DNA of 62,853 nt. It comes from Stutzerimonas stutzeri (lineage in GTDB: Bacteria > Pseudomonadota > Gammaproteobacteria > Pseudomonadales > Pseudomonadaceae). Below are positions 45,460-62,519 of this stretch, one piece after another. The position numbers and the translations under genes were made by a program. Under the pieces are notes generated by a model. It did no database searches and was not told where the DNA came from. It saw only the letters and a list, made by a program, of their open reading frames with translations. The stretch lies in assembly GCF_024448985.1 (NCBI RefSeq), contig NZ_JAMOII010000021.1:1-62853 (forward strand). The letters are read 5' to 3'. Position 1 is the stretch's first letter. Each line of letters begins with the position of its first letter.

Positions 45460-47154
45460 TTACTGCGCTAACTTCTTGTATTTGACGCGATGCGGCTGAG
45501 CGGCGGCGTCGCCCAAGCGCTTCTTGCGGTCGGCCTCGTACTCGGTGTAGTTCCCCTCGAAGAAGATGATGTCACCGTTGTCCTCGTAGGAGAGTATGTG
45601 CGTGGCGACCCGGTCCAGGAACCAGCGGTCGTGGGAAATCACGATCGCCGCGCCGGGGAAGTCCAGCAGCGCTTCTTCCAGTGAACGCAACGTTTCCACG
45701 TCGAGGTCGTTGGACGGTTCGTCGAGCAGCAGCACGTTGGCGCCTTCCTTGAGCGTCAGCGCCAGATGCAGACGGCCACGCTCACCACCGGACAGGTCCT
45801 TGACGAACTTCTGCTGGTCGCCGCCCTTGAAGTTGAAGCGCCCCACGTAGGTGCGCGAGGGGACTTCATAGTTGCCGATGCGGATCATGTCGGAGCCATT
45901 GGACACCGCTTCCCATACCGTCTTGCTGCCGTCCAGGTCCTCGCGGCTCTGGTCCACGCAGGCGACCTGCACGGTATCGCCGATCTCGATGCTGCCCGAG
46001 TCCGGCTGCTCCTTGCCCATGATCATGCGGAACAGCGTGGATTTGCCCGCGCCGTTGCCACCGATGACGCCGACGATGGCGCCCTTGGGCATGCTGAACG
46101 AGAGGTCTTCGATCAGGATGCGGTCGCCGTAGCCCTTGGTCACGTTCTTGAAGTCGATAACCTTATCGCCCAGACGCGGGCCGGCAGGGATGTAGATTTC
46201 GTTGGTCTCGCTGCGCTTCTGGAATTCCTGGGACTGCAGTTCCTCGAAGCGCTGCAGGCGCGCCTTCGACTTGGCCTGACGAGCCTTGGCACCCTTGCGG
46301 ACCCACTCCAGCTCTTCCTTCATGGCCTTTTCGTGGGCCGATTGCTGCTTGGATTCCTGCGCCAAGCGGTTGGACTTGGCTTCCAGCCAGCCGGAATAGT
46401 TGCCCTCGTAGGGAATGCCCGCGCCGCGGTCTAGTTCGAGAATCCAGCCAGCGACGTTGTCGAGGAAGTAACGGTCGTGGGTGATCGCCACCACGGTACC
46501 GGGGAAGTCGTGGAGGAAGTGTTCCAGCCAGGCTACCGAATCGGCGTCCAGGTGGTTGGTCGGTTCGTCCAGCAGCAACATGTCCGGCGCCGACAGCAGC
46601 AGACGGCAGAGCGCGACACGGCGCTTTTCGCCACCGGACAGGTGTCCAACCGTTGCATCCCACGGCGGCAGGCGCAGGGCATCGGCCGCGACTTCCAGCT
46701 GGCGCTCGAGATTGTGACCATCGCTGGCCTGCAGAATGGCTTCGAGCTTGGCCTGTTCGGCGGCCAGCTTGTCGAAGTCGGCATCGGGTTCGGCGTAGGC
46801 AGCGTAGACCTCATCGAGGCGCGCCTGCGCGTCCTTGATGCTGCTGACTGCTTCTTCAACTACGTCGCGAACCGTTTTGCTCGGGTCGAGCTCGGGTTCC
46901 TGGGGCAGGTAACCCACGTTCAGGTCGGGCATCGCCCGCGCCTCTCCGTCAAACTCCTTGTCAACGCCGGCCATGATTCTCAACAGCGTGGATTTACCCG
47001 CGCCGTTGAGGCCGAGTACGCCAATCTTGGCGCCAGGGAAAAAGGATAGAGAAATGTTCTTGAGAATCTCGCGCTTCGGCGGAACGACCTTGCTCAGCCG
47101 ATGCATGGTGTAGACGTAAGAGCCTGTTTTGCCTGATTTGTCACTTTTGGACAT
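45460..47154 (-). CDS. ettA: Energy-dependent translational throttle protein EttA (ABC-F)
   Basis: Ribosome E-site ABC-F ATPase gating elongation according to ATP/ADP. The 564-aa product has two ABC domains: Walker A GLNGAGKSTLLRIM (about residues 48-61) and GGNGAGKSTLFRMI (about 358-371); signatures LSGGEKRRVALC and LSGGERGRLHLA. Between them are the EttA arm and a Lys-rich linker. No membrane segments. The N terminus carries about 16 residues before MHRLSKVV. The integrase module starts only 148 nt from its start codon, so its promoter region abuts accessory DNA. Confidence 0.95.
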   Translation of the reverse strand: MSKSDKSGKTGSYVYTMHRLSKVVPPKREILKNISLSFFPGAKIGVLGLNGAGKSTLLRIMAGVDKEFDGEARAMPDLNVGYLPQEPELDPSKTVRDVVEEAVSSIKDAQARLDEVYAAYAEPDADFDKLAAEQAKLEAILQASDGHNLERQLEVAADALRLPPWDATVGHLSGGEKRRVALCRLLLSAPDMLLLDEPTNHLDADSVAWLEHFLHDFPGTVVAITHDRYFLDNVAGWILELDRGAGIPYEGNYSGWLEAKSNRLAQESKQQSAHEKAMKEELEWVRKGAKARQAKSKARLQRFEELQSQEFQKRSETNEIYIPAGPRLGDKVIDFKNVTKGYGDRILIEDLSFSMPKGAIVGVIGGNGAGKSTLFRMIMGKEQPDSGSIEIGDTVQVACVDQSREDLDGSKTVWEAVSNGSDMIRIGNYEVPSRTYVGRFNFKGGDQQKFVKDLSGGERGRLHLALTLKEGANVLLLDEPSNDLDVETLRSLEEALLDFPGAAIVISHDRWFLDRVATHILSYEDNGDIIFFEGNYTEYEADRKKRLGDAAAQPHRVKYKKLAQ

Positions 47155-47302: not shown

Positions 47303-48568
47303 ATGGGTTTGCAAGTCATAGAGCAGGTGGTGAATGCTGCTCGAAGAAAGATGCTGGTGCAAGACTGCATCCCGGTCTACTACCCCAACCTATACATCAC
47401 CATGGAGCACTCGGGCAGAGCCCTCGAAACAACCAAGAAGTACCTTGAGCATCTGGCTGTGTTTGAGGAGTTTCTGGCGTTTTCCTCCATTGATCTGATT
47501 TCTCACCTCGAACAGCGCCCTCACAGCCGGTACCTGACAGACAGTGAGCTTTCAAGGTTTGTGTCGGACGCGGGGTTCAGCAAGGAAACCTTGGCCATGA
47601 AGTATGCGGGGATGCGCTTGCATCCGACCGCCTACAAATCCGTTGGCAAAGTCCATGCGCAGCAGCGAATCGAGGCGGTACGCGACTATCTGGCCTTCCT
47701 CTATGACAAGTTGGGTGATCACTCAACACGATATGAGGCGGTTGACGATCTGAAGAAGCGCATCAACCGCAAGATCAAAGCGGCCAGCCCTGCGTGGAAA
47801 AAAACGCGAACGGACGAAATGAAGGGGCTTACTGCCCAGGAGCGAACTCGGTTGCTGGAAATCATGCATCCGAATAGCGCCGAGAATCCCTTTTCAGATG
47901 ACGCCATCAGGCTGCGTAACTACATCATTTTGCTGTTGGGTCTCGACATGGGGCTGCGACGCTCCGAGATGCTGCTGATCAAGACCAGAGATATTCACTG
48001 GCACAGTCGTCAACTGGCGGTGGTCAACCTCGAGGATGAGAGCATCGATCCACGAACCATGGCCCCGCAATTCAAAACCCACGAGCGCATGCTGGTGATG
48101 ACCGATGACCTGTATGACGCGATCACTGAGTACGAATCGAAATATCGCCACAGAAAGCCCCGTAGCGGCACATCGCAAGCAAGGAAGCATCCGTTTTTGC
48201 TGGTGGCGCACAAGCGAAATGAGGGCGGGCCTCTGACCATCAAGGCAGTGGATGGCGTTCTGTCGAGGGTTCGAGAAATAGCGCCGGAACTGGCTCATGT
48301 GCACCCGCATATTCTCAGGCATGACGCGGTCTACACCATGCTGGAAAGCATGCGTGAGGAGCTGGCAGCGCTCACGCCGGAGGATCGCACCACGCAAGTT
48401 CAAAAGACCCTGACATGGATGTTCGGCTGGAGTCCCGAGTCGAACATGCCCGGCCTCTACGGCGCAAAGTTCTGGAAGGAGGAGGCAGACAAAGCGATAC
48501 AGAAACGGGCCGAGCGGTTTACGTCCAGCCGTCATAAGGCCGGCATGACACCAGGAGGTTCAGCGTGA
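47303..48568 (+). CDS. Tyrosine recombinase 1 of a three-recombinase module (421 aa)
   Basis: A site-specific tyrosine recombinase. An N-terminal SAM-like core-binding region lies at about residues 35-140. The catalytic domain has Arg near 219-220 (GLRRSEML), H336-x-x-R339 (HILRHD) and the nucleophile Tyr near 386 (GLYGAKFW). All expected residues are present, so it looks active. The sequence is unlike phage or ICE single integrases in layout. It is first of four tightly linked genes; its stop overlaps the next start (GTGA). Codon use is less GC-biased than neighbouring core genes. Confidence 0.9.
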   Translation: MGLQVIEQVVNAARRKMLVQDCIPVYYPNLYITMEHSGRALETTKKYLEHLAVFEEFLAFSSIDLISHLEQRPHSRYLTDSELSRFVSDAGFSKETLAMKYAGMRLHPTAYKSVGKVHAQQRIEAVRDYLAFLYDKLGDHSTRYEAVDDLKKRINRKIKAASPAWKKTRTDEMKGLTAQERTRLLEIMHPNSAENPFSDDAIRLRNYIILLLGLDMGLRRSEMLLIKTRDIHWHSRQLAVVNLEDESIDPRTMAPQFKTHERMLVMTDDLYDAITEYESKYRHRKPRSGTSQARKHPFLLVAHKRNEGGPLTIKAVDGVLSRVREIAPELAHVHPHILRHDAVYTMLESMREELAALTPEDRTTQVQKTLTWMFGWSPESNMPGLYGAKFWKEEADKAIQKRAERFTSSRHKAGMTPGGSA

Positions 48569-50151
48569 ACATCGCCGTCGAAGCACTTCAGGCCCCCACA
48601 AAGGACAGCCTCGATGCATGGCTGAGCACGCCTCGCCTGGCGAAATGTGGGGAGGTGTTCACACCGACTCACCCCATGTGGAAACCCGATAAATCGGCCA
48701 CACACCCAGTCAACTGGAAAGCGGCCCTCGCCTGCGTCTCGCCGGATTGGCAGCCCTGGTTGCACGCCGCCATGGCCTATCGAATGGCTGATCATGCAAC
48801 GGGCTCGGTTGCTAAAGTCGCCAGTGTGTTGTCGCGGGCTGCTCAGGCCGGTCTTGACCCGCTCAACGAGGATCACCTGATCGCTCTGCGGGAGCGCTTT
48901 AACGTCAGCGAGTTCAGTCAGTTAGCCGCTTTCATGGCGTTTTGGCGCGACTGCGAATCCCTCGAACAACGTCCGCCGCAATCCCTGATCGAGGCCTACC
49001 AGGCACTGCCCAGAAAAAAGAAATCCAGCCACGATGTGATCCTCAGCCTGGACCCCGAACAGGGCCCGTTCACCCAGGTGGAGCAGGACGCGCTGCACCA
49101 ATGGATACATGAGCAGTTCTGTCACGGTCAGCTAGATCCCGACCAATACCTGTATCTGCGCCTGTTGATGATTTACGGGCAGCGTGGCGCTCAGGTGCGC
49201 ATGATGGTGTTTGGTGATTTAACGAAGACCGATCAGGGCTGCAAGGTCAGGTTTCATTGGGCAAAGCAAAAACACGGCGAGGCGGGTTGGCGAGCCAAGT
49301 CCGAAACCTTCAGTCTGGATGAGGACCTGTACAACACCGTGCAGGCCTACAAGGCCATGGTTCTGGCGCAACTCTGGCAAACCTATCCAGACCGCGCCTA
49401 CTGGGATGCAGCCATTGAGAATGTGCCGCTCTTTCGTCGGAAGATAGATGATGAAGCAGAATTTTTGGAACGGGTGAATCCCCCTGTTTTACTCGATAGC
49501 CCTCTGCAAAAAGCCCTCGAAGAGGCGCCGCAGCCAATCTTTCATGTTGGAGCAGGCACGGTTCAGGCATGGCTTGATCGCATCGAGCGGATGGAGGGCT
49601 TTCCAATTTCGCCTCGCACCCATCAGCCGCTGAAAGTGACGCGGGGGCACCGGTTCAGGCACACCCTCGGCACGGACTTGTCCAATGCCGGGCTGGATGA
49701 GTGGACGATGGCCAGCGCATTGATGCACAACAATACTCGGACAGTACGAAAGTACCGCCAGGTGTCGCCGGAGCTGCTGGCCTTGATCGACGCGAAGATG
49801 AGCGACCATCTGGCCTTGGTTGTGAATGCGTTCACCGGGATCATCGTCACGGATCGCACCTCAGCAAAAAACGGGGATCGAGCGGATCGACAAATCGAGG
49901 ATCTGGCAGTGTGCGGTGCCACTGCCGCCTGCCATCTCGATGCGCCCTTTACCTGTTACGCATGCGGAAAATTCCAACCCCTTCTGTACGCCAATCACCG
50001 CGCGGTTCTTGAGCGATTGGAACGTCGGCGGGCGCAAACCATTGCCACGGATAAAACGACCGGCGTGCTCTGGGATCGGGCCATTCTGGCGTGCCGCAAG
50101 GTGATTCTGGATTGTGAGGCCACGCGCCAATCAGGGAGGAAAGGCGAATGA
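48565..50151 (+). CDS. Tyrosine recombinase 2 of the module (528 aa)
   Basis: Begins at GTG 48565 inside the stop of recombinase 1. Catalytic residues are R207 (YGQRGAQ), H362/R365 (HRFRHT) and Tyr 397 (VRKYRQVS), so it should be active. It is longer than usual integrases, with about 110 residues after the Tyr. That tail contains C450, C456, C464 and C467 (the last two in FTCYACGKF), a possible zinc site. It overlaps recombinase 3 by 4 nt. The role within the trio is not known to me; coupled expression suggests a joint complex. Confidence 0.9.
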   Translation: MNIAVEALQAPTKDSLDAWLSTPRLAKCGEVFTPTHPMWKPDKSATHPVNWKAALACVSPDWQPWLHAAMAYRMADHATGSVAKVASVLSRAAQAGLDPLNEDHLIALRERFNVSEFSQLAAFMAFWRDCESLEQRPPQSLIEAYQALPRKKKSSHDVILSLDPEQGPFTQVEQDALHQWIHEQFCHGQLDPDQYLYLRLLMIYGQRGAQVRMMVFGDLTKTDQGCKVRFHWAKQKHGEAGWRAKSETFSLDEDLYNTVQAYKAMVLAQLWQTYPDRAYWDAAIENVPLFRRKIDDEAEFLERVNPPVLLDSPLQKALEEAPQPIFHVGAGTVQAWLDRIERMEGFPISPRTHQPLKVTRGHRFRHTLGTDLSNAGLDEWTMASALMHNNTRTVRKYRQVSPELLALIDAKMSDHLALVVNAFTGIIVTDRTSAKNGDRADRQIEDLAVCGATAACHLDAPFTCYACGKFQPLLYANHRAVLERLERRRAQTIATDKTTGVLWDRAILACRKVILDCEATRQSGRKGE

Positions 50152-52385
50152 CCGATGCGTTTGATTCTGAACTGACGAACAACATTGTTGATTTCAAGCC
50201 CAGGAGCCAACTGGCTACGGAGGCTCAGCTCACGGCGTTTATCGAATGGGCAAAACAGACCCTGCCCAAAGGCATTCCCAGTCGCGTGCACTCGAGTATT
50301 TGCTGGGAAGACGGCAGTTGGCACAAGCATGGCGTCCATAGCTGTAGCTTCACGGCGCTGGGATCGACCAACGCAGCCCCAAAGGCGATACAGGCACCCT
50401 TCACGGAGTTTGCCAAGGCCATCATGGTGTACCGACGGGTGTATTTGCAGAAAAAGGCAATTAAAGACTGGCTGACTGCCCTGAAGGTGCTGGAAGCCGC
50501 CTTGGTCGAGCTGACCGGCACGCGGGATGTGACGCAGGTGTCCGCCGCTGTCTGCAATAAAGCGTGCGAGCACCTGAGTCGTCACTGGGCAAAATGCAAC
50601 AACGCATACGTTAGCAGCAAGGCACTTGAGGCGCTCATCACCCTGATGCGGGCCAAAAAACTGCTCAAGGCCGATTTTCGGTGGACCTCTCCGCTGACGA
50701 TGAAGTCGCGTGGCACGCTCAAGCAGCAAAAAGCGGATCGGGAACAGAAACTGCCCAACCCCGAAGCGATCAAAGCGCTCGGGGAAGTGTTCACTAACGA
50801 ATTGACCCGCCCTCTGGATATCGTTGTGACATCCGCCTGTGCGCTGTTGCTGAGCGCCCCGAGTCGCGTGGGTGAGTTGGCGGATGTTGAATTGGATTGT
50901 CGGGTGTTCAAAGAGGATACCCACGGCAACCGGCGCATGTTCCTGCGCTGGTACGCGGAAAAGGTAAACCAGGTCACGCTGAAGCCAGTCGTTAAGCCCG
51001 AGATGGAGCCGGTCGTCGAGCGGGTCATCACCTTACTGAAACCGATCACCGATGAGGCGCGGGCTTACGCCGCCTGGCTGGAAGAGCATCCCGATGAGTT
51101 TCCGCCCCATGAAGGGCTGCCACTCAAGGGGCCTGATGAACCGCTTACCTATGCCGAAGCCTGTGCCGCGCTGAAACTCAGTGTTCATGAGAGCCACAAC
51201 CCGCGAACAACATTCCAAAATGGTTTCCTAAAACCCATGGAGAAGAAAAAGGCGCTCAGCCCCGCCGCCCGAGCCCTCTTGGCCGAGATTCGTGATGGTT
51301 TGGATGCCAGTAGAGGGAAGCGGATATACGTGAAGGACAAGCCAGGAGTCCAGGGTGTTGAGTTTGACGACCGGTGTGTGATCACGCTGCGCACGCTCAA
51401 TGCGCTGCTGCGTGAGAAGTATCTCCCAAAGGATTTTCCCTACACCACGCCGTACACGGAGGGCAAGGCGCGGGTGAAGTTTCGTGATGCCTTGTTCACC
51501 GTGCGCACGGGAGCGCTGGCTGAAGACGCAGGTGGCACTGCTGTGACGCACGGGTTTGGCGTAGAGATCGCGGCGAACCCTAACCGAATGAAGGCGCAAT
51601 TGGGCGGTTCGAACAAACCGAAAAGGAAAAGCCTGTTCGAGCGCTATGGCTATCCCGGCGTCAAGGTCAACACGCATGCGTTTCGGCACGAATTGAACAC
51701 GCGGATGCACGAGGCCGGTCTGTCGCAGCTCCTGATTGACGCCTTCTCTGGACGCACGACGATGGGGTCTATCTACAACCATGAGACCATCGAGGATCGT
51801 ACTCAAAGGGTTGCGGCTTACCACCCCAAAACGAAGCACAGCACCGCTGCTCAGCGTCTGGACAAGGTCAAAACCAATCAGCCGCTGACCCTGGCGGAGG
51901 TGAGGGAACTGCGCGAGGGTGAGCAAGACCGCATTATCCATCAAACCCATCTCGGCGTTTGTGCACACAACTTCGCATCCGAGCCCTGTCCGAAAATGGG
52001 TGCCTGTTTGGACTGCGGGCGGCTCGGTTGCGTCAAAGGGGATGACGTGAAGCTGGGCAACCTCATGGAAGAACGCGACGACCTTCAACGCCGCCTAGAT
52101 AAAGCCATGGATGCGCAGTCTCGTGGTGTGTTTGGAGCATCAGAGTCTGCCAAAAAACTGGGTGAGAAGCTCTTTAAGTGCGAGGCGCTCATCCAAACGC
52201 TGGAAAACCCCGAACTCGAAAACGGTGACATTGTGTGGAACGCCGACAACGGTTGGACGCTGACCAAGAACGCCGCCGCAATGTCGGGGTTGATCGAAGT
52301 CAAAGTCATTGAAGAGAACCAGGCGCAAGAGGCGTTGCCATCGTTGGATGACGTCTTAGCTTTGCTTGATGAGATCGAGGGTTAA
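50148..52385 (+). CDS. Tyrosine recombinase 3 of the module (745 aa)
   Basis: An unusually large tyrosine recombinase. Catalytic residues are R240 (APSRVGEL), H510/R513 (HAFRHE) and Tyr 543 (GSIYNHET). About 270 residues separate the Arg from the HxxR, far more than usual, so there is a big insertion in the catalytic domain. The tail has a cysteine cluster, C605, C614, C620, C623 and C628 (including CPKMGACLDCGRLGC), which may bind zinc. A coiled region follows. It overlaps recombinase 2 by 4 nt and is followed 2 nt later by the 132-aa gene. Confidence 0.9.
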   Translation: MTDAFDSELTNNIVDFKPRSQLATEAQLTAFIEWAKQTLPKGIPSRVHSSICWEDGSWHKHGVHSCSFTALGSTNAAPKAIQAPFTEFAKAIMVYRRVYLQKKAIKDWLTALKVLEAALVELTGTRDVTQVSAAVCNKACEHLSRHWAKCNNAYVSSKALEALITLMRAKKLLKADFRWTSPLTMKSRGTLKQQKADREQKLPNPEAIKALGEVFTNELTRPLDIVVTSACALLLSAPSRVGELADVELDCRVFKEDTHGNRRMFLRWYAEKVNQVTLKPVVKPEMEPVVERVITLLKPITDEARAYAAWLEEHPDEFPPHEGLPLKGPDEPLTYAEACAALKLSVHESHNPRTTFQNGFLKPMEKKKALSPAARALLAEIRDGLDASRGKRIYVKDKPGVQGVEFDDRCVITLRTLNALLREKYLPKDFPYTTPYTEGKARVKFRDALFTVRTGALAEDAGGTAVTHGFGVEIAANPNRMKAQLGGSNKPKRKSLFERYGYPGVKVNTHAFRHELNTRMHEAGLSQLLIDAFSGRTTMGSIYNHETIEDRTQRVAAYHPKTKHSTAAQRLDKVKTNQPLTLAEVRELREGEQDRIIHQTHLGVCAHNFASEPCPKMGACLDCGRLGCVKGDDVKLGNLMEERDDLQRRLDKAMDAQSRGVFGASESAKKLGEKLFKCEALIQTLENPELENGDIVWNADNGWTLTKNAAAMSGLIEVKVIEENQAQEALPSLDDVLALLDEIEG

Positions 52386-52387
52386 CG

Positions 52388-52786
52388 ATGGGGCATTTAA
52401 CGCCAAAGGATGAGAAACGCATCATTAAGCTGATTGAGGAATGGTCAGAGCCGAAGCTGACTTGGCCTTTGCTCGTTGAGGCCTGCAAAGAGAAACTGGG
52501 TATCAGTCGTGCTCGCCAGTCCCTGATGAATCTACCTGCCGTGGATTTAGCGATGAAGAATTGCAAGGCGGCATTGAAGGCTCAGAAGCTGAAGCCGGGC
52601 TGGATTAGCGATATTCAGGCCGCTAACGAGCACATTGAGAAACTGACAGCGAACAATCAGAAGCTGTTAGCTGCTGTTCGAGATATGCGTAGCCGGTTTT
52701 TGATTTGGCAAGCCAATGCGGATATGCACGGGCTAACGCAATCGATGTTGGAGCGGCCGGTTTCACAGCTTCAAAAGAAGATCTGA
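52388..52786 (+). CDS. 132-aa coiled-coil protein, fourth gene of the recombinase module
   Basis: Starts MGHLTPKDEKRIIKLIEEWS. It is soluble and mostly helical, with a coiled-coil stretch at about residues 75-100 (ANEHIEKLTANNQKLLAAVR). No catalytic motif is seen. Its position, 2 nt after recombinase 3, suggests a recombination accessory factor. As I recall, SE-type elements carry a similarly placed gene (srap) and GInt islands a fourth gin gene; equivalence here is inferred from position and size only. Confidence 0.75.
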   Translation: MGHLTPKDEKRIIKLIEEWSEPKLTWPLLVEACKEKLGISRARQSLMNLPAVDLAMKNCKAALKAQKLKPGWISDIQAANEHIEKLTANNQKLLAAVRDMRSRFLIWQANADMHGLTQSMLERPVSQLQKKI

Positions 52787-52790
52787 TCCG

Positions 52791-52919
52791 GTGTTCGGAA
52801 ACTTGTACCTGGAAAAGACTCATGGCAGCTACGTCCTGAAATTCAAGCACTCGGATCATGCTCCGCGCTACGTTCTGGAAGGGGACGAATTGATGATCCG
52901 GCCGTATTGCAAGCCATAA
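52791..52919 (+). CDS. Possible 42-aa small protein
   Basis: An open frame from GTG 52791 to TAA 52917-52919 encodes about 42 residues (FGNLYLEKTHGSYVLKFKHS near the start, ending IRPYCKP). The composition looks protein-like, but no good ribosome site precedes the GTG and the frame is open further upstream inside the previous gene. It may be the end of a fifth module gene or chance. Confidence 0.3.
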   Translation: MFGNLYLEKTHGSYVLKFKHSDHAPRYVLEGDELMIRPYCKP

Positions 52920-53173
52920 TCAGGGATGCGGGTACCAGAGGAGCAAAAGTCGCAGATCACATAATCATGGCTACCGTCGCCAGCGATTTAATTTCCATGC
53001 TCACACCTGAATAATTTTCTTGTGAATGAAGCGGTCTGTTGCAGCTGGCCAACAATGACCGCTTTTGACCGCTTTGAGCCTTTCGGATTAGGCAGGAATC
53101 GGCCCAGAGTGTGTAAAAACATCCCGGTAAACCCTTGCTATGATTTCCGAGAATCTCATCGCAAGGGACGCCC
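52920..53173. other. Intergenic stretch before a truncated transposase
   Basis: No ORF of note. TGACCGCTTTTGACCGCTTT near 53055-53074 is a short direct repeat. The start of the truncated IS1182-like element probably lies in its right part, where GTGTGTAAAAACATC (53109-53123) might belong to the IS end; this is not proved. Confidence 0.35.
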
Positions 53174-53497
53174 ATGAAACGGTTTATCCAGGGTGAACAT
53201 CGAGGTCAAAGCACCTTACTTCCCGAAAGCCTCGACGACTACGTCAGCGATACCAATCCGGTTCGGGTGGTTGACGTTTTCGTCGATGAACTCGATTTGG
53301 CCAATCTAGGTTTTGATGGCGTCATTCCAGCCGAAACCGGCAGACCTGCCTACCACCCGGCGATCCTGCTGAAGATCTACATCTACGGTTACCTAAACCG
53401 AATTCAATCGAGCCGACGTCTGGAGCGAGAAGCCCAGCGCAACGTCGAACTCATGTGGCTAACCGGGCGTTTGATGCCCGATTTCAAGACCATCTGC
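53174..53497 (+). pseudogene. Truncated IS1182-like transposase (N-terminal part)
   Basis: MKRFIQGEHRGQSTLLPESL starts a DDE transposase N-terminal domain of the IS1182/IS1380-like group (DUF772 type). YHPAILLKIYIYGYLNRIQS (about residues 58-77) and RRLEREAQRNVELMWLTGRL are characteristic. At MPDFKTI the frame runs into the terminal repeats of an IS21-family element and ends. The rest of the transposase is not found on the other side of the IS21 element. It is a non-functional relic. Confidence 0.8.
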
Positions 53498-53565
53498 GGA
53501 TTCCACGCCATTCGGACACTCAGCCCACGCTGATCCGGACACCTGTTCCACGTTCATTCGGACAG
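53498..53565. repeat. Left terminal tandem repeats of the IS21 element (3 copies)
   Basis: Three related 22-mers at a 23-bp period, each of the form ...TCCACG..nATTCGGACAC, for example CCCACGCTGATCCGGACAC at 53524-53542. In IS21-type elements such repeats bind the IstA transposase. Confidence 0.8.
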
Positions 53566-53599
53566 GCAGTCGGAGCGCAGCGACGCAGGGGTGGCATTG

Positions 53600-54355
53600 T
53601 TAGTCTGAGGTGCCCGGCGTCGTCAATTTCTGCGTCCGTTTGCGCATTGATTCACCCTCCAGATTGATCCGATAAGCGTTGTGCACCAGGCGGTCGAGGA
53701 TGGCATCGGCCAGGGTCGGATCGCCGATCAGTTCGTGCCAGTTGTCCACCGGCATCTGGCTGGTGACGATGGTCGAGCGCTGGCCGTAACGGTCGTCCAG
53801 TAGCTCCAGCATGTCGCGCCGTTGCTCGCCGGTGAACGGGGCCAGGCCCCAGTCGTCGAGGATCAGCAGGTCGGTCTTGGCGTAGCTGCTCATCAGCTTG
53901 GCGAAGCGGCCGTCGCCATGGGCCAGACCCAGTTCTTCCAGCAAACGTGGCAGGCGCAGGTAGCGCACGCTGTAGCCCTCCCGGCAGGCCTGGTGGGCCA
54001 GGGCGCAGGCCAGCCAGGTTTTACCGACACCGGTGGGGCCGCCGATGATCAGGTTGAGGCCGTCGCGCAGCCACTGACCACTGCTCAGTTGCAAGATCAG
54101 CGCCTTATCCAGTCCGCGCGGGCTGCGGTAGTCGATGTCTTCGAGGCAGGCGTTGTGCTTGAGCCGGGCCTGGCGCAGGCGGCTGCTCAGGCGCTTGTCA
54201 TCGCGTTCGGTCAGCTCGCGGTCGACCAGCAGGCCGAGGCGTTCTTCGAAGCTCAGGCTGTCGATGTCCGGGGTTTTCAGTTGTTCATTCAGCGCCTTGA
54301 GCATGCCGTGCAGGCGCAGGGTTTGCAGCTTGTCCAGGGTCGGATGGGGCAGCAT
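53600..54355 (-). CDS. istB: IS21 family helper ATPase IstB
   Basis: A 251-aa AAA+ ATPase that selects target DNA for the IstA transposase. From ATG 54355 it starts MLPHPTLDKLQTLRLHGMLK. Walker A is GGPTGVGKTWLACALAHQA (about residues 107-125), Walker B DLLILDDWGLAPF (about 166-178), and sensor/Arg segments IVTSQMPVDNWHELIGD. Complete. Upstream frame extension to 54499 overlaps istA and is not needed. Confidence 0.92.
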   Translation of the reverse strand: MLPHPTLDKLQTLRLHGMLKALNEQLKTPDIDSLSFEERLGLLVDRELTERDDKRLSSRLRQARLKHNACLEDIDYRSPRGLDKALILQLSSGQWLRDGLNLIIGGPTGVGKTWLACALAHQACREGYSVRYLRLPRLLEELGLAHGDGRFAKLMSSYAKTDLLILDDWGLAPFTGEQRRDMLELLDDRYGQRSTIVTSQMPVDNWHELIGDPTLADAILDRLVHNAYRINLEGESMRKRTQKLTTPGTSD

Positions 54356-54372
54356 GGTGGGATTCCTTGGGG

Positions 54373-55902
54373 TCAGTGGTAGTAGGCGGATCCGCGCAGG
54401 TTGGCGTGGTCGTCCGGCAGTAGCGGCAGGTTGGTTTGAACTAGCGGCAGGTTTTCCAGCCCCTGGCGCAGGATCGATTCGAGGCTCTTGTAGCTGCACG
54501 TGCCGAGGCTGATGGCGCGACGGCAGGCCAACTCCAGACGCGCCTCACCGTGGGTTTTACCCAGGCGCAGGATGCCCAGGCAGGCCCGGTAGCCCTGCTG
54601 CGGATGGATGCGCCGTTCGAGGATGTGCCGGATCACGCCGGCGGTGTTCGGCCCGGTCTGCTCGGCCCAGCGGATCAGCCGTTGCGGCGTCCACTCGGCA
54701 TGCTCGCGATGGCTCTTGGGCATGTGCTCGGCCTGCGTGCTGTGCCTGCCCTTGTGCATTGAGCGCAGGTGGCTGGCCACCCGCTGGTTGGCGTGGAAAC
54801 ACTCGACGGTGCGCGCCGTCAGGCGCACCTCCAGCTGCTTCTTCACCAGTTGATACGGCACCGAGTAGTAATGCCCATCGACCTCGACGTGGTAGTCGAT
54901 GTGCACCCGCGCCTTCTTCCACTCGGCGTAGACGTAGGGTTGCTCCGGCAGGGGGCGCAGCGCCGGACGATCCAGAGCTTCGAAGGCCGTCTGGCGCGAG
55001 CCCGGCAGCTTGCGAAACGGTCGTCGGTTGAGCCGCTCCAGCAACCCGGCGATAGCGCTGTTGAGTTCATCCAGGGAGAAGAACTGGCGGTTGCGCAGGG
55101 CGGCGAGGATCCAGCGTTCAACCACCTGCACGCCGACTTCGGCCTTGGCCTTGTCGCGCGGTTTGCGTGCCCGCGCCGGCACCACCGCCACGCCATAGTG
55201 CTCGGCCAGATCGCGGTAGCTCGGGTTGATGTCCGGCTCGTAACGATGGGCCTTGCTCACCGCGCTGCGCAGGTTGTCCGGCACCACGATCTCCGGCACC
55301 CCGCCGAGGAAGGCGAAGCAACGGGTATGCGAGCCCAGCCAGTCCGGCAGCTGCTGCGACCAGGTGGCTTCGGCGAAGGTGTAGCTGGACGCGCCAAGCA
55401 CCGCGACGAACACCTGCGCCTGGCGGATCTCGCCGCTGTGGCGATCGATAACCGGCACCGTCTGGCCAGCATAGTCGACGAACAGCTTCTCGCCGACGCG
55501 GTGCTCCTGACGCATCACCACGTCCAACTTGCCCTGCCAGGCTCGGTAGTGCTCACAGAACCAGCTGTACTGAAAGCCCTGCGGCTGGCTCAGGCGGTAC
55601 TCCTGCCAGAGCAGCGCCAGGGTTACGCCGGGGCGGCGCAGTTCGGCATGCACCCATGCCCAATCGGGTAAAGGCCGCTTCTCACTGGCAACCGCCGGGG
55701 CCGGCGGGAACAGTTGCTGCTCCAACTCGGCATCGGACAACGAACAGGGCCAGGTGAGGCCGCTGGCGGCAAAACGGCAGAGGTAATCACCGGCACTGCT
55801 GTGGCCAATGCCCAGGCTGCGGGCGATCTTGCGCACGGACAGGCCGCAGTCGAACTTGAGGCGTAACACCTCTCGGATTTTACGCATGGATAAACGCTCC
55901 AC
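54373..55902 (-). CDS. istA: IS21 family transposase IstA
   Basis: A 509-aa DDE transposase. The N-terminal helix-turn-helix is KFDCGLSVRKIARSLGIGH (about residues 14-32). The integrase-core Asp is in LFVDYAGQTVPVIDR (about 143-157), the second Asp in IVVPDNLRSAV and the Glu in KAKAEVGVQVVERW. The C-terminal part handles terminal repeats. It appears intact, so the element may be mobile. It precedes istB by 17 nt. Confidence 0.92.
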   Translation of the reverse strand: MERLSMRKIREVLRLKFDCGLSVRKIARSLGIGHSSAGDYLCRFAASGLTWPCSLSDAELEQQLFPPAPAVASEKRPLPDWAWVHAELRRPGVTLALLWQEYRLSQPQGFQYSWFCEHYRAWQGKLDVVMRQEHRVGEKLFVDYAGQTVPVIDRHSGEIRQAQVFVAVLGASSYTFAEATWSQQLPDWLGSHTRCFAFLGGVPEIVVPDNLRSAVSKAHRYEPDINPSYRDLAEHYGVAVVPARARKPRDKAKAEVGVQVVERWILAALRNRQFFSLDELNSAIAGLLERLNRRPFRKLPGSRQTAFEALDRPALRPLPEQPYVYAEWKKARVHIDYHVEVDGHYYSVPYQLVKKQLEVRLTARTVECFHANQRVASHLRSMHKGRHSTQAEHMPKSHREHAEWTPQRLIRWAEQTGPNTAGVIRHILERRIHPQQGYRACLGILRLGKTHGEARLELACRRAISLGTCSYKSLESILRQGLENLPLVQTNLPLLPDDHANLRGSAYYH

Positions 55903-55972
55903 AACGACCTCTCTGCTTCGAAAAAGAGATCGATGGTAGTGAATAAATCCTGCGTGGCTGCCTGCCAGAAAA

Positions 55973-56086
55973 GTGTCCGGATGACCGTGGAGTCGGTGTC
56001 CGGATGCTTGTGGAATGAGTGTCCGGATCAGCGTGGAATCACTGTCCGGGTGCGCGTGGAATGGGTGTCCGAGTCAGCGTGGAATC
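55973..56086. repeat. Right terminal tandem repeats of the IS21 element (5 copies)
   Basis: Five copies, each starting GTGTCCGG(or a variant) and ending GTGGAATC/G, for example GTGTCCGGATCAGCGTGG at 56019, at an exact 23-bp period. They are inverted relative to the three at the left end. The asymmetry, five against three, is clear in the sequence. Confidence 0.85.
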
Positions 56087-56090
56087 CGCA

Positions 56091-56627
56091 ATGACCGTCT
56101 TCTTCATTCGTCCGGCCGGCAGCAACCCGATGGCCTATTGGTTTATCCATCTGGCGAACAACTACCGCGCTAATGATGTGATGAAGAAGATCCACTGGAA
56201 ATACGGCAACAACTTTTCCCATATGCTGTCGCCTTCCAGCTTTTTTGGTTACGACGCCAATCGGGATATCGCCGTGACAGGTCAGCACGATTTGCTGCTG
56301 GATGAGCACCACTTCGACGATGCCACGGATGACCGCATCCGTGGCGAGCTTTCAGAGCTCTTGCCTAAGCAGGTCTACGAGGTTGAACGGCAACCTTTTC
56401 TGGGCCTGATGAGTGGATTGACCAATTACACCATGGCTGACGAGCTTCGTGTAAAGCAGGCGCTCGGTATGGCTGTCGCGACCGGTGATCTGCTGGCGAT
56501 CGGCAAAGATGGCAAAACTAAGCGCCGCAAGGGCACAAGCATCAAATCTACTGACATTTTGATAGCGCCCCCGCAGCGACCCATCTTCTTCCTGCCGCCA
56601 CTGAATAAGTATAACTCAGAAGGCTAG
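56091..56627 (+). pseudogene. Truncated gene, possibly the C-terminal part of TcmP
   Basis: About 178 residues (from VFFIRPAGSNPMAYWFIHLA) remain of a larger protein cut off by the IS21 right end. The HLANNYRANDVMKKIHWKYG segment and GYDANRDI resemble the C-terminal part of three-Cys-motif partner proteins (TcmP), by memory and not searched. ATG 56091 lies at the IS boundary, so any translation would be incidental. It ends before copR, on the opposite strand. Confidence 0.5.
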
Positions 56628-56692
56628 GCTCGGCCCGGGACAGACCAGGTAGAGTAGTTGGCCCATCGAGAGAAGATAGCTGCTATTACACT

Positions 56693-57373
56693 CTAGGCGT
56701 CTGGCGCGTCGATCAAATAGCCCATCCCACGAGCTGTTTGTATGAGCTTCGGCTCGAATTCATCATCAATTTTCGCTCTCAGCCGCCGTACCGCCACCTC
56801 GATCACATTGGTGTCGCTATCGAAGTTCATGTCCCATACCTGGGAGGCAATGAGCGATTTGGACAGGACTTCCCCGCGACGCCTAAGCAATAGCTCAAGA
56901 AGTGCGAATTCCTTGGCGGTTAGGTCTATGCGTTTCCCCGAGCGCGTAACCCGACGTCTCAGCAGATCCATCTCAACGTCGAGGAGCTTGAGTATCGTTT
57001 GGTTGGGAGCATGGTTGCCGCGGCGAAGCAACGTACGGATCCTGGCGAGCAATTCGGAGAATGCAAACGGCTTGATAAGATAATCATCAGCGCCCAGCTC
57101 CAACCCCTTTACGCGATCCTGTACCCCATCTCTGGCGGTGAGGAAAAGCACGGGGACCTCATTACCGGCCGCGCGGACTTTCTGTAAAACCTGCCACCCA
57201 TCCAAACCAGGCATCATCACATCTAAGATGAGCAGGTCGTATGCCGCATTAAGCGCATGCTGAGCAGCATCGGTCCCATTCAGAACCCGATCGACAGTGA
57301 AGCCCGCCTCAGTGAGCCCCTGCTGTAGGTAGGTGCCCGTTTTCGGCTCATCTTCAGCAACAAGAAGCTTCAT
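56693..57373 (-). CDS. copR: Heavy-metal response regulator CopR/CusR
   Basis: A 226-aa OmpR-class regulator. The receiver domain has the acidic pocket VAEDEPKT near residues 5-12, phosphorylated Asp 51 ([13 protein letters not shown]) and Lys in [11 protein letters not shown]. The C-terminal winged helix ([15 protein letters not shown], then [21 protein letters not shown]) binds DNA. In relatives it activates copper genes. The usual partner copS is missing: only 65 nt of unrelated sequence and the truncated gene follow its stop. It is divergent from the cop genes. Confidence 0.93.
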
Positions 57374-57435
57374 TGAAAGTACTCCGCCTGCATTGAGATC
57401 ACAGTGTGCCGACTCTCAGATCTTGCAGCCAGTAC

Positions 57436-57452
57436 CTTACAGAAACGTAATG
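57436..57452 (+). promoter_or_regulatory. Candidate CopR box 1 (near copR)
   Basis: CTTACAGAAACGTAATG, an imperfect inverted pattern CTTAC-N6-GTAATG. It lies 63 nt upstream of the copR start, where it could mediate autoregulation. Same layout and spacing as boxes at 57656 and 58370. Confidence 0.55.
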
Positions 57453-57655
57453 CCCGCATCATCTGTCTGACAGCTTGTAGCGCTAACGTCTACATCAGCA
57501 GTTGCTCCCACACTCTGCTTTTTGGCCTTTTCCATGCTCCTTTGGCCTATCGGCGCCTAGATGGCGCCTTTTTTTTGCCGGCAGGAAACAAGGCCTATTG
57601 TCAGAACGAAAAGCGCATACACGCTTTCGCTTTCGCTAACTGCTTGCCTGCATTA

Positions 57656-57672
57656 CTGACGAAACCGTAATG
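57656..57672 (+). promoter_or_regulatory. Candidate CopR box 2 (before PtrA-like gene)
   Basis: CTGACGAAACCGTAATG, with CATTAC immediately left giving an additional inverted CATTAC...GTAATG. It lies 114 nt before the PtrA-like ATG. Confidence 0.55.
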
Positions 57673-57785
57673 TCTAGATCAGGGATCTGACAGGAACGCT
57701 CGGTTAGCTTAGACACAAGCCCTAGCCCAAGACTCTGCTTAGAGCGGTGCTGGGTAGTTCATGTCTTTCAACGAGGTAACAAGCG

Positions 57786-57995
57786 ATGAAACTTTTCAGA
57801 TTTCTTTCCGTACTGCTCGCCATCGCGGCAAGCTCTACCTATGCGATGGCAGAGGGTGGTGGTGATCGTACCTTTGCTCGTCTGGAGCAGGCTCGCCAGC
57901 TAGCGATCGCTAGTTATCAGGCTGACAAGAAGGACCAATCTCAGGAGGTAGTCTCAAAGGCAGCTTCAACGAAGCACGCTCACGCTAACTGCTAA
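57786..57995 (+). CDS. Small secreted PtrA-N-terminal-like protein
   Basis: 69 aa with a signal peptide (MKLFRFLSVLLAIAASSTYA, then MA/EGGGDRTF). The mature start EGGGDRTFARLEQARQLAI resembles the N-terminal domain of PtrA, a copper-induced protein of P. aeruginosa reported as a type III secretion repressor. The C-terminal KHAHANC offers His and Cys ligands. A probable periplasmic copper-linked protein; its function here is unknown. GAGGTAACAAGCG precedes the ATG. Confidence 0.75.
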   Translation: MKLFRFLSVLLAIAASSTYAMAEGGGDRTFARLEQARQLAIASYQADKKDQSQEVVSKAASTKHAHANC

Positions 57996-58537
57996 TGCGA
58001 AGCCTTATGCAAATTTAACCATGCGGCTCTGGTAACTATGGCAGCTTCTACGAACGTTGTAGCTGCCATGGTGTTGCCACTTGCAGCCTCAGTTGGAAGA
58101 ACTAGCGAAGTCGTATTAGCCGCTCACATTTTTAAGCGGCATCGCCAACTATGCGACATAAATTGGAAACAATAGAAGCGTGGTCGAAATATAGTGATTG
58201 GAAGGCAGCCGCTATTAGATTTCTGATGTTCGACTTTCAATGAGCATCATTGCAGCCACATCCTTCAAATAAATCAAAAGTTCCGTCCCAAGGTAAAGCT
58301 ATTGCGCAGCCTCCATACAGAAATCGACGTGGTCAGGTGATTTCTTGATCGCTTTTGATGCGTTTTAAGCTTACAAAAATGTAATCACGCATCTTTCTCA
58401 GGCATGCCATATTTACGAATAAAGGCGAGTCGCTTGATAAGACACCGTGCCCGAGCTTTTAAGATCAATTAACGCTGGCAACATCAACCCTCAGGGCTGG
58501 TTTCGGCTTGGCTCCTTAGCTTGATTGGAACGTACAC
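57996..58537. other. 542-nt non-coding region upstream of copA
   Basis: AT-richer than the flanking genes, with no credible ORF. ATGGCAGCT (58038-58046) and AGCTGCCAT (58061-58069) form a hairpin with a 14-nt loop that may end the small upstream transcript. A CopR-like box lies at 58370. The leader of copA would start after it. The length suggests lost genes or decayed DNA. Confidence 0.5.
58370..58386 (+). promoter_or_regulatory. Candidate CopR box 3 (before copA)
   Basis: CTTACAAAAATGTAATC, the closest of the three to an inverted repeat (TTACA...TGTAA). It is 152 nt upstream of the copA ATG. Confidence 0.6.
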
Positions 58538-60391
58538 ATGCAACGTAAAACCTCTAGGCGAACCTTTGTTAAAGGCTTGACTGCCGCAGGCCTCCTTGGC
58601 GGTCTTGGTTTGTGGAGAGCTCCGGTCTGGGCAGTGAGTAGCCCCGGCCAGCCCAGCGTACTAACCGGCACGGAGTTCGATCTACTGATTGGGGAGACGC
58701 CGGTCAACATCACCGGCGCGGCTCGGACGGCAATGACCATCAACGGCACTATTCCAGGACCGCTTCTTCGTTGGCGTGAAGGGGATACGGTCACGCTGCG
58801 GGTCAGGAATAAGCTGAGCGAAGATACATCCATTCACTGGCACGGCATGATCCTGCCGGCCAACATGGATGGCGTGCCTGGACTGAGCTTCCACGGCATC
58901 GCTCCCGATGGCATGTATGTCTACAAGTTTCAGGTTAAACAGAACGGTACCTATTGGTACCACAGTCATTCAGGCCTACAAGAGCAGCTTGGTGTCTATG
59001 GTCCGTTGGTCATCGATGCGAAGGATCCCGAACCGTTCAGCTATGACCGCGACTATGTGGTGATGTTGACTGATTGGTCCGATGAGGATCCTGCTCGAAT
59101 CCTTTCTAAGCTCAAGAAGCAGTCCGATTATTACAACTTCCATAAGCGCACTGTCGGAGACTTCATTAACGATGTGAGCGAAGACGGGTGGGCCGCAACG
59201 ATTGCAAATCGGAAGATGTGGGCTCAGATGAAGATGAGCCCCACCGACCTCGCCGACGTAAGTGGCTACACCTATACCTACTTAATGAACGGCCAAGCAC
59301 CCGACGGGAACTGGACCGGTATCTTTAAGCCCGGCGAGAAGCTTCGTCTGCGGTTCATCAACGGCTCGGCCATGAGCTATTTCGATGTCCGCATTCCAGG
59401 GCTGAAGATGACTGTAGTCGCAGCCGACGGCCAATACGTCAACCCCGTTAGCGTCGACGAATTCCGCATTGCCGTGGCAGAGACCTACGATGTGATTGTC
59501 GAGCCTGCAACCGAGCAGGCTTACACGATCTTCGCCCAATCGATGGACCGCACAGGGTACGCCCGTGGCACGCTAGCGGTTGCCGAAGGGCTGAGCGCTC
59601 CTGTTCCAGAAACCGATCCTCGACCGCTAATCACCATGGACGATATGGGGATGGATCACGGCAGTATGGGCGGTATGGCGGGCATGGACCATGGCGGCGG
59701 CATGCAGGGCGACATGGGTGCGATGGACCATAGCAACATGTCCGGTATGAACCACGGTGACATGCAGGGAATGGGCGGCATGGGCGCAATGTCCGGAATG
59801 GATCACAGCAAAATGGCTGGGATGTCAGGGATGGACCACTCTGGGATGGCGGGTATGAGCGGAGGTATGCAATCGCACCCGCCCTCAGAGTCCAATAACC
59901 CACTGGTGGATATGCAGACCATGAGCCCGACTCATAGGCTAAACGATCCCGGTATTGGCTTACGAGACAACGGCCGCCGAGTCCTGACCTATGGCGACTT
60001 GAGCAGCACTTTCCCGGATCCGGACGGCCGCGAGCCAAGTCGGACGATCGAACTCCATCTCACCGGCCACATGGAGAAGTTCTCCTGGTCATTTGACGGC
60101 ATAGAGTTCTCTGATTCGGAGCCCCTGCGGCTCAAATATGGCGAGCGAGTACGCATCACGTTGGTTAACGACACCATGATGACCCATCCGATTCATCTGC
60201 ATGGTATGTGGAGCGATCTTGAAGATGAGAACGGAAACTTCATGGTTCGCAAGCACACGATCGACATGCCTCCAGGTTCAAAGCGCAGCTACCGCGTGAC
60301 AGCTGATGCACTCGGGCGTTGGGCTTATCACTGTCACCTACTGCTTCACATGGAAATGGGCATGTTTCGTGAAGTCCGAGTGGATGAGTAA
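58538..60391 (+). CDS. copA: Copper-resistance multicopper oxidase CopA/PcoA
   Basis: Periplasmic cuprous oxidase. The 617-aa product has a twin-arginine signal (RRTFVKGLTAAGLLGGLGLW near residues 6-25). Copper sites are HWHGMILP and WYHSHSG in domain 1 and HPIHLHGM and HCHLLLHMEMGM at the C terminus, covering type 1, 2 and 3 centres. Residues about 365-445 are Met/His-rich (MGGMAGMDHGGGM type repeats) and should bind Cu(I). It is first of four genes in the cluster. Confidence 0.96.
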   Translation: MQRKTSRRTFVKGLTAAGLLGGLGLWRAPVWAVSSPGQPSVLTGTEFDLLIGETPVNITGAARTAMTINGTIPGPLLRWREGDTVTLRVRNKLSEDTSIHWHGMILPANMDGVPGLSFHGIAPDGMYVYKFQVKQNGTYWYHSHSGLQEQLGVYGPLVIDAKDPEPFSYDRDYVVMLTDWSDEDPARILSKLKKQSDYYNFHKRTVGDFINDVSEDGWAATIANRKMWAQMKMSPTDLADVSGYTYTYLMNGQAPDGNWTGIFKPGEKLRLRFINGSAMSYFDVRIPGLKMTVVAADGQYVNPVSVDEFRIAVAETYDVIVEPATEQAYTIFAQSMDRTGYARGTLAVAEGLSAPVPETDPRPLITMDDMGMDHGSMGGMAGMDHGGGMQGDMGAMDHSNMSGMNHGDMQGMGGMGAMSGMDHSKMAGMSGMDHSGMAGMSGGMQSHPPSESNNPLVDMQTMSPTHRLNDPGIGLRDNGRRVLTYGDLSSTFPDPDGREPSRTIELHLTGHMEKFSWSFDGIEFSDSEPLRLKYGERVRITLVNDTMMTHPIHLHGMWSDLEDENGNFMVRKHTIDMPPGSKRSYRVTADALGRWAYHCHLLLHMEMGMFREVRVDE

Positions 60392-60403
60392 GAGGAACTT
60401 TAT

Positions 60404-60706
60404 ATGGGAAATTTTATGAAGCGTAAGACTCTTATCGGCAGCGCGTTTATATTCAGTTTGCTGGGCATAATGAATATGTCAGCTGCGTTTGCAGATCAAA
60501 AACATGATCAACACAAGCAATCATCGGCTTCGTCGCAAAACCCGGTCAACAAGCCGGCATCTCAGGCACCAGAAACTTCTGATTCCGAAATGAACCACGG
60601 CGACATGGATCATGGCTCGATGGACCATGGTGATATGGACCACGGCAAAATGGGTCATGACCCGAAGGCTACTGGTGCTAAGGTGGATTCACACCATGAC
60701 CATTAG
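60404..60706 (+). CDS. Small Met/His-rich copper-binding protein
   Basis: A 100-aa protein with an N-terminal signal-like segment ([20 protein letters not shown], cleaved near AFA). Residues about 62-90 have tandem MxHGDMDHG-type repeats ([20 protein letters not shown]), the same motif as in CopA and CopB. Probably a periplasmic copper buffer. ATG 60416 (MKRKTL) is an alternative start. It overlaps copB by 11 nt. Not a standard named cop gene that I recognise. Confidence 0.8.
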
Positions 60707-61694
60707 ATCTTGTCGCTTTGCTCTGATTGCGCTCGGAGTTTCGTTGAGCGCAGCGGCTGGAGGGACAGCCAACGCTGCCGAGATGATGGATCACTCGATG
60801 CATCAAACCCCTCCCACTGAGGCAGCTCAAGCCCCTGCATCTTCAGCCAAGCCCGCAGCTAAGAATCATGGCTCCGGTGGGCAAATGGACCACTCCGCAA
60901 TGGGTCATGGTGCGATGGACCATAGCAAGATGAACCATGGCCAAATGAAGCATGACGATACGCTCGAAATGCCCGGCATGGTTCATCCCTCGTTCATTCC
61001 AGTATTGACCGATGCGGATAGAGAAGCGGCTTTCCCTGGTCTTCAAGGTCATACGGTCCATGACAAGTATCTGGCCTGGTTTCTTCTGCTAGATCAACTT
61101 GAGTACCAGAACGCAAATGAAGGTAGCACCCTCAGTTGGGAAGCTACTGCCTGGGTTGGTGGCGATATCAATCGATTCTGGTTTCGCTCGGAAGGTGAGC
61201 GAACGAATGGCGTTACTGAAGACGCGGAAATTCAGGCGCTCTACGGGCGTGCCATCAGCCCCTGGTGGGATGTGGTAGCAGGTGTTCGCCAGGACTTTAA
61301 GCCAGAGTCGCCGCAGACGTGGGCGGCTTTAGGCGTCCAGGGGATGGCTCTGTATGGGTTTGAGGCGGAAGCCACCGCCTTCGTCGGTGAAGGTGGGCAG
61401 ACAGCAGCACGTTTTGAAGGCGAGTACGACATTCTCCTCACTAACCGGCTCATCCTCCAACCGACTGCCGAGCTCAATTTCTATGGCAAGGACGATCCTG
61501 CACGCGGAGTGGGCGCTGGTCTCGCAAATACAGAGGTGGGGCTCCGCCTCCGATACGAAATCGTTCGTGAGTTCGCACCGTACATCGGCGTCACGTGGAG
61601 CCGGGCATACGGTAATACCGCTGATATGGCGAGAGATGACGGCGAAGACCTAGATGAGGCGCGGTTCGTTGCTGGCATCAGGCTTTGGTTTTAA
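60696..61694 (+). CDS. copB: Copper-resistance outer-membrane protein CopB/PcoB
   Basis: The 332-aa product from ATG 60696 has a signal peptide ([20 protein letters not shown], ending ANA). A Met/His repeat region follows at about residues 60-90 ([18 protein letters not shown]). The CopB beta-barrel (about 115-332) includes [21 protein letters not shown] (split) and ends FVAGIRLWF. It would contribute to copper handling across the outer membrane. It overlaps the small Met/His protein gene by 11 nt. Complete. Confidence 0.94.
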
Positions 61695-61703
61695 GGACCC
61701 TCG

Positions 61704-62519
61704 ATGAAAAGAATAATTATTAGCTTCGCTGCCTTCTGTGCTCTAGGCCTGTTGGTAGTGGCCGGAGTTGTTTTCTCAGGACTGATTAGCGTTGCCGCGG
61801 ATGATCCTCATACGGGAGTCGTGCACGCATTCCTGGAAACTGCTCGCAATCGCTCGATTGAGGCTCGCTCCGAAGACATAGCCGTGCCATCTCTCGACGA
61901 TGAAGACCAAATCCGCGCCGGGGCGGGGAACTACGACTCGATGTGTGTGGGTTGTCATTTGGCGCCAGGCATGGCTGAGACCGAGCTAAGCAATGGCCTT
62001 TATCCCGCTCCACCCAGCCTGGCTGAAGCGGGGCCATACGATGACCCAGCAAAAACATTTTGGGTCATCAAGCATGGCATCAAGGCCACTGGTATGCCTG
62101 CGTGGGGTAAAAGCATGGCTGACCCGTACATATGGGGGATGGTGGCTTTCCTGCAGAAGCTTCCTGAGCTAGATGAAGGAGCGTATCGAGCGCTCGTTGC
62201 GTCTAGCGGTGGTCATCAGCATGGTGGTGGGGAGACCCCAGCTGGGCACGGTGATCAACATGGTGAGATGACCACGGACGATCATCATCAGGACAACAGT
62301 AGCAGCTCGGATCACCATGGCTCTAGCAGCTCGGGTGGAGCAACCGGCCAATCAGGCTCCGGGCATCATGGTGATAGCGAAAGCGATGACCATCACGCTT
62401 CCGACGAGCCCCAGGCGGTAGAGCACAGCAATGGCAGTGACAGTGCCGATGCCGATGCCGAAGGCAAATCCCCTTCAGAAAACCATGTGCACGCAGACGG
62501 GAAGCAACACGAGCACTAA
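61704..62519 (+). CDS. Membrane-anchored or secreted cytochrome c with His-rich tail
   Basis: The 271-aa product has one N-terminal hydrophobic segment (about residues 5-30), an uncleaved anchor or signal. The haem motif CVGCH lies near residue 81, with MPAWG (about 131-135) as the probable Met ligand. From about 168 to the end the sequence is low-complexity, rich in His, Ser, Gly and Asp (for example HHGDSESDDHH), a potential metal sponge. It starts 9 nt after copB; a copper-redox role is inferred. Confidence 0.88.
   Translation: MKRIIISFAAFCALGLLVVAGVVFSGLISVAADDPHTGVVHAFLETARNRSIEARSEDIAVPSLDDEDQIRAGAGNYDSMCVGCHLAPGMAETELSNGLYPAPPSLAEAGPYDDPAKTFWVIKHGIKATGMPAWGKSMADPYIWGMVAFLQKLPELDEGAYRALVASSGGHQHGGGETPAGHGDQHGEMTTDDHHQDNSSSSDHHGSSSSGGATGQSGSGHHGDSESDDHHASDEPQAVEHSNGSDSADADAEGKSPSENHVHADGKQHEH

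Follow-up and report, generated by a model that had tools for sequence, protein, structure and literature searches.

The GInts, for which Tn6571 family is another name and which are represented by Pht-PAI of P. syringae pv. phaseolicola 1448A and a GInt of P. stutzeri DSM 4166 (PMC5385486), share the gene order ginABCD and occupy the 5′ end of an ABC transporter gene. Their attL and attR are short, imperfect direct repeats with a 6-nt spacer, the right end is AT-richer, and the varied cargo, which includes copper resistance, ranges from 2.5 to about 76 kb ("at least 76 kb"). In one relative the four Gin proteins act together, all four genes being needed, and the element is excised as a circle (PMC5385486). 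The published GinD has a helix-loop-helix C-terminus resembling TnpC of Tn554, to which it has been compared (PMC5385486).

Three other systems are close enough to warrant comparison. SEs (strand-biased circularizing elements) also carry four genes at their left end, the second of which, tfp, encodes a recombinase fold without catalytic residues; on integration the attB spacer enters attL and the incoming spacer attR (PMC10214605). The SE circle carries the spacer of the donor's left flank. GInt and SE proteins form separate clusters, with no similarity between them (PMC10214605). Tn554 leaves a 6-bp footprint (PMC10214605) and encodes two recombinases and TnpC. Finally, RITs have three adjacent tyrosine recombinase genes, with products of 315-410 aa (PMC10214605).

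The ginABCD operon

The stretch of DNA analysed here (the window; 62,853 nucleotides) is an entire contig, C21, of a draft genome of Stutzerimonas stutzeri (4.23 Mb, 52 contigs). Its element is almost certainly a GInt of the published family found at the 5′ end of ettA. As the initial annotation had claimed, three genes for large tyrosine recombinases, their starts overlapping stops, precede a 132-aa ORF, all on the + strand: ginA (47303..48568; 421 aa), ginB (48565..50151; 528 aa), the recombinase-like ginC (50148..52385; 745 aa) and ginD (52388..52786). Pfam and homolog alignments support the first three, together with NCBIfam for ginB and hhalign for ginC. The catalytic positions claimed for these proteins (RR219-220/HILR336-339/Y386 in GinA, R207/HRFR362-365/Y397 in GinB and R240/HAFR510-513/Y543 in GinC) were likewise confirmed.

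The Pfam Phage_integrase model scores GinA at 44.1 bits and GinB at 29.7 bits, both above its cut-off of 27.1, and GinC at 15.3 bits, under that cut-off, with its HxxR...Y stretch detected; because of these scores, the recombinase observation is not a product of chance. GinB also matches the full NCBIfam model NF041502 ("site-specific integrase") at 234 bits, under the model's cut-off of 350. Among distinct homologs, R219, H336, R339 and Y386 of GinA are kept in 27/27; for GinB the counts are 48/49 for R207 (the exception being an X), 41/49 for H362, 45/49 for R365 and 49/49 for Y397. GinB also has H388, which, like these four residues, is kept in most homologs. Past the catalytic Tyr, conserved Cys residues that resemble metal-binding modules are found in GinC (C605-C628; 16 sequences) and GinB (C450-C467). 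Family and domain searches with GinD gave no match of note; homologs of it adjoin every close GinC, and its size and place fit the published GinD.

The preference of the initial annotation for GInt- or SE-like layouts over RIT was borne out in that the GInt layout fits; the SE and RIT layouts do not, given the catalytic residues of GinB and the protein sizes, respectively. Membership among the RITs was rejected because products of 421, 528 and 745 aa exceed 315-410 aa (PMC10214605), and the fourth gene and long cargo also set the locus apart from their description. Tn554 shares the 6-bp measure with the spacer here, but lacks a counterpart of the third recombinase and is set apart by description too. 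As a GInt, the element is of a known kind and an ordinary member of it. Three points go beyond the available portions of PMC5385486 and PMC10214605: the replaced start of ettA, the direction in which spacers are placed and the catalytic set of GinC.

The operon has relatives in Stutzerimonas stutzeri, S. kunmingensis, S. xanthomarina and S. chloritidismutans, among others. GinC relatives also occur in 54 plasmid records, 31 of them from Escherichia, and all but one are less than 60% identical. On plasmid pT75-VIM (CP113227.1, 158355-172583), ginC and a ginD-like gene (81% identity) adjoin tmexCD-toprJ; the annotation places ISPst3 upstream of ginC and lists neither ginA nor ginB.

Ends, cargo and the replaced start of ettA

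The target is an ettA-like gene for an ABC-F ATPase (45460..47154, - strand), recognized from its ORF, genome comparison and Pfam, and its 5′ end is chimeric. Between ettA and the element lies the attL spacer AGACGT (47112..47117), which is the ettA target of empty genomes; it is followed by the left terminus AAGAGCC (47118..47124), where bearers and empty genomes diverge. A strong ettA match was counted in 54 of the 56 genomes of the genus, the remaining two being incomplete. At these readable loci 11/54 are occupied and 43/54 empty, so the genes are not core genome present at the same place in all relatives, in agreement with the initial annotation. In the 11 bearers the match to the window runs on through 47154, and in the other 43 it ends at 47118. 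A close GinC relative is present in 11/56 genomes (81-95% identity in the ten other than ours), and these are the same 11 genomes whose ettA begins with the element's codons; any GinC relative at E 1e-10 or better is found in 20/56.

The right end was sought, as had been proposed, by comparison with an empty relative. The flank of G041, a genome of the same genus that is 94% identical over the ettA stretch of the window, was found on contig C10 of the genome analysed here from base 64527, with the junction reading TAATAGCGCAGAT-ATGCAT-ATTGAGCCATGG. Together, the native flank and the junction place the left end at window position 47118 and the right end at C10:64521. The sites therefore read AGACGT-AAGAGCC (attL), ATGCAT-ATTGAGCC (attR) and AGACGT-ATTGAGCC (attB). 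As in published GInts (PMC5385486), the end repeat is short and imperfect, with a 6-nt spacer, and the right end is AT-richer, with a G+C of 0.46 in the element's last 200 bases vs 0.60 before.

The cargo begins at 52787..62853 and continues on C10:1-64521. A direct overlap of at least 15 bases between the ends of the window and C10 was not found. A P. luteola plasmid has the last 2.25 kb of the window next to the first bases of C10, overlapping by 7 bases, and the same junction occurs on an S. stutzeri plasmid with the two parts 3 bases apart. If this plasmid-derived join holds in our genome, the island is about 80 kb long (80,257 bp), a little beyond the published range; in relatives whose two ends share a contig, the islands span roughly 29 to 74 kb.

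The copper genes, which the initial annotation had counted as cargo, do lie inside the element, given that two plasmids join the window to C10 and that C10 reaches the right end; copper resistance is part of the varied cargo of published GInts also (PMC5385486). After two transposase-like ORFs named by eye (53174-53533 and 53600-55902) come genes for a CopR-like response regulator (56693..57373, -; Pfam Response_reg and Trans_reg_C), the multicopper oxidase CopA (58538..60391, +; Pfam Cu-oxidase families), CopB (60612..61694, +; Pfam CopB, 309.8 bits) and a cytochrome c (61704..62519, +; Pfam Cytochrome_CBB3). On C10, the metal cargo comprises two RND pumps, a heavy-metal P-type ATPase and a cation diffusion facilitator. 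Defence is represented by a Gabija pair at C10:47365-50945 (L079:7365-10945; GajA 887.5 bits, GajB 791.9 bits), with type I methyltransferase and specificity subunits to its right. A repeat of about 180-190 bp occurs three times in the cargo at 97-99% identity (C10:40705-40885, 47043-47223 and 51075-51259).

Parts of this cargo recur in relatives. The island of G048 shares a 17.9-kb stretch with C10 at 98% identity, and that of G034 resembles stretches of C10 near the right end (75-92% identity). G042 carries the first 6 kb of C10 (98% identity) at a place other than its ettA island, and in G041, G034 and G048 portions of this block recur elsewhere at 81-94%; because of these copies, which count against our overall explanation, the block is not private to the island.

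The start codon of ettA and its first 12 codons (MSKSDKSGKTGS; 47119..47154, -) are borne by the element, as the comparison of bearers with empty genomes reveals, and EttA begins with MAQYVYTMHR in empty genomes vs MSKSDKSGKTGSYVYTMHR in bearers. We refer to this segment as the cap. It is present at 35/39 left ends examined (11 bearers of the genus and 28 further loci, four of which, L123, L126, L127 and L128, are without the terminus pattern and were left out of the cap set). Eight of the 35 loci represent the same genome twice; after removal of repeats, 16 distinct forms occur among 27 loci, one in Marinobacter. Most changes in the cap are silent when read in the ettA frame (pN/pS 0.30 vs 1.18 and 1.71 in the shifted frames), and its codons, judged by their pattern of change, show purifying selection.

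The cap is, in our estimation, highly likely to be the start that ettA uses. Transcription running outward into the ABC transporter gene has been reported for a GInt (PMC5385486), and a scan for the sigma-70 consensus between ettA and ginA found none. A replaced start codon or replaced N-terminal codons are not mentioned in the main texts of PMC5385486 and PMC10214605, in the portions available. A second, unrelated GInt, with only about 29% GinC identity, lies in the start of another gene in G047 and G037 and supplies MTIYKSNTDRVVVLD where the native sequence is MRSVVLD. We take this gene, from its sequence, to be dnaQ.

Two loci with the cap, L102 and L114, are not at ettA. At L114 (and L157; Pseudomonas sp. 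Irchel 3E13, NZ_FYDX01000012.1), the GInt splits a UvrD-like gene that has homologs on plasmids, and the halves of that gene lie near opposite ends of the 234-kb contig, as would be expected of a circular replicon.

Spacers and the direction of integration

The spacers of 17 GInts at ettA with both ends known were compared in pairs; islands at ettA with attR only (G152, G359 and G410) and those with attL only (G005, G027, G403, G406, G411, G412, G420 and G425) were left out. In the ettA frame, 17/17 attL spacers encode Tyr-Val. The attR spacer equals it in three (G053, G054 and G418) and differs in 14/17, in which 13 sequences are found; the arms beside the attR spacer are conserved despite this variation. 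Thus, in 14/14 informative insertions at ettA, the target's spacer is in attL and the incoming one in attR. This is the placement described for SEs (PMC10214605), confounded here by selection at ettA. The direction of GInt integration with respect to spacers is not described in the main texts of PMC5385486 and PMC10214605, in the portions available, and, according to the latter, strand bias in the recombination of GInts "remains elusive". Judging from spacer placement, integration is likely to be directional.

The strongest competing explanation is ordinary, unbiased integration by tyrosine recombinases, in which heteroduplex spacers can be resolved to either sequence, following the scheme of PMC5385486, and in which the pattern at ettA only reflects selection for intact EttA. 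The attL spacer lies within ettA codons, where some incoming spacers would create a stop, and such selection could by itself give rise to the attL side of the ettA pattern; circles with either spacer have also been found (PMC5385486). Spacers that would be silent in ettA or are seen in other bacteria (ATACGT in G409; AGATAT in G042 and G413) nevertheless occur only in attR. Further, two insertions, the only ones free of this confounding, break the gene they enter and still follow the rule. In G398, a gene other than ettA is split by the island, and the attL spacer, CAGCGC, is that of an intact homolog (90% identity, 200 aa). In the second, copy b of G047, the target is known from five identical empty copies in four other genomes (GGTC-TCCAGA-ACAACTG), and TCCAGA is kept in attL with AACAGC in attR. 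We thus consider unbiased integration unlikely.

The genome G047 has two GInt copies on one chromosome (L176, L177, L185 and L186), 99.9% identical over 18.3 kb, one at dnaQ and the other in another gene. Both carry AACAGC in attR, a spacer found in neither attL. If one copy gave rise to the other, this is contrary to a strict SE cycle, and the pair does not support a rule by which the circle takes the donor's left-flank spacer; the departure favors the unbiased alternative to that extent. Taken together, the spacer placement, the G047 pair and the circles with either spacer (PMC5385486) lead us to conclude that integration is probably directional and excision perhaps not.

Where the incoming spacers come from can be seen in part. 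The attR spacer of G398, AAACGT, is the ettA spacer of another bearer, G400, making ettA its possible source, and the AGATAT in attR at two ettA sites matches ettA spacers of other genomes. The ettA target pattern was found in 86 of 274 sampled gammaproteobacterial genomes, with spacers of the types Tyr/Phe-Val and Tyr/Phe-Ile, among them the one giving AGATAT; the Tyr-Ala type was not found among the 86. An origin of all odd attR spacers in the ettA of other bacteria was rejected, most being without a source in this list. In G410, where a UvrD-like gene is split and homologs are intact, the two spacers are a single base apart, at the third position of a codon, and the case is therefore not decisive for the rule.

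It is improbable that the island is a relic that no longer moves. Insertion-sequence-like genes lie within it, and the ginB of one relative, L125 (from the same genome as G054), is split in two frames; against these stand the four intact gin genes of the window, ends that match those of relatives with different cargo, and the 13 different attR spacers among 14 islands, which point to repeated insertion in the family. Scarcely credible is the idea that the element is an SE, with which it shares spacer placement, four genes and about the same protein sizes, since tfp is without the catalytic residues that GinB has (PMC10214605), the first GInts were of this family and had this target gene (PMC5385486), and GInt and SE proteins cluster apart (PMC10214605).

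The catalytic set of GinC and a proposed mechanism

GinC has been described as being without the first Arg (PMC5385486) and without the RHRY motif (PMC10214605), in the portions of those papers available. In contrast to the residues reported missing there, its sequence suggests a complete set, and we regard it as fairly likely that GinC is catalytically complete. R240, E243 and K272 are invariant in 38 distinct homologs; H510, R513 and R536 are kept in 37/37 that reach that region, the 38th having a gap. Y543 is present in 34/38, the remainder being one gap, one F and two R, and the distant GinC rows shown in the alignment have a Tyr two residues beyond the Y543 position. The context of the first Arg, APSRVGEL, resembles what we take to be the usual box I.

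Profile comparisons reach only part of this set. The HxxR...Y parts of GinC and GinB pair in hhalign (E 3.4e-4); R240 of GinC pairs with R207 of GinB, and K272 with K234, only in an insignificant alternative alignment (E 0.72). A comparison with GinA by hhalign gave nothing useful, the GinC alignment, searched as a profile against the PDB, had no match up to E 1, and Pfam gave none on the box I fragment of GinC or of one relative. An AlphaFold model of GinC (16 sequences; mean pLDDT 47) was of too low quality to be used. Domain models may miss GinC on account of its long stretch between K272 and H510.

Our overall explanation, which we hold to be very highly probable, is of a GInt that probably recombines directionally at the 5′ end of ettA, with the cap as a likely repair of the gene and the cargo riding along. 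In the proposed mechanism, recombination between the ends of a circular form and the 5′ end of ettA, centred on the 6-bp spacer, would be the joint work of GinA, GinB, GinC and GinD. Strand exchange would be directional, leaving the target's spacer in attL and sending the circle's to attR. The left end would then repair the damage by giving ettA an in-frame start codon and 12 codons, and an outward promoter at that end, as published for a relative, would drive the gene. Metal-resistance and defence genes would be carried as cargo, and spread between cells would probably be via plasmids or other vehicles.

For the family as a whole, we put forward a broader proposal that seems to us evenly balanced: that GInts are strand-biased and SE-like in integration and are run by three catalytically complete recombinases, and that GInts at gene starts carry replacement start modules, which arose independently for ettA and dnaQ. 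If the active site of GinC is really complete, there would be three catalytic recombinases rather than two and a helper. The spacer comparison provides natural evidence for a bias in integration; if that bias is true, the 6-bp spacer of attR would be a readable record of an island's previous home and may let the earlier homes of such islands be traced. Likewise, a replaced start of ettA, if it functions as proposed, would explain how, in many species, an island can occupy the first part of a conserved gene.
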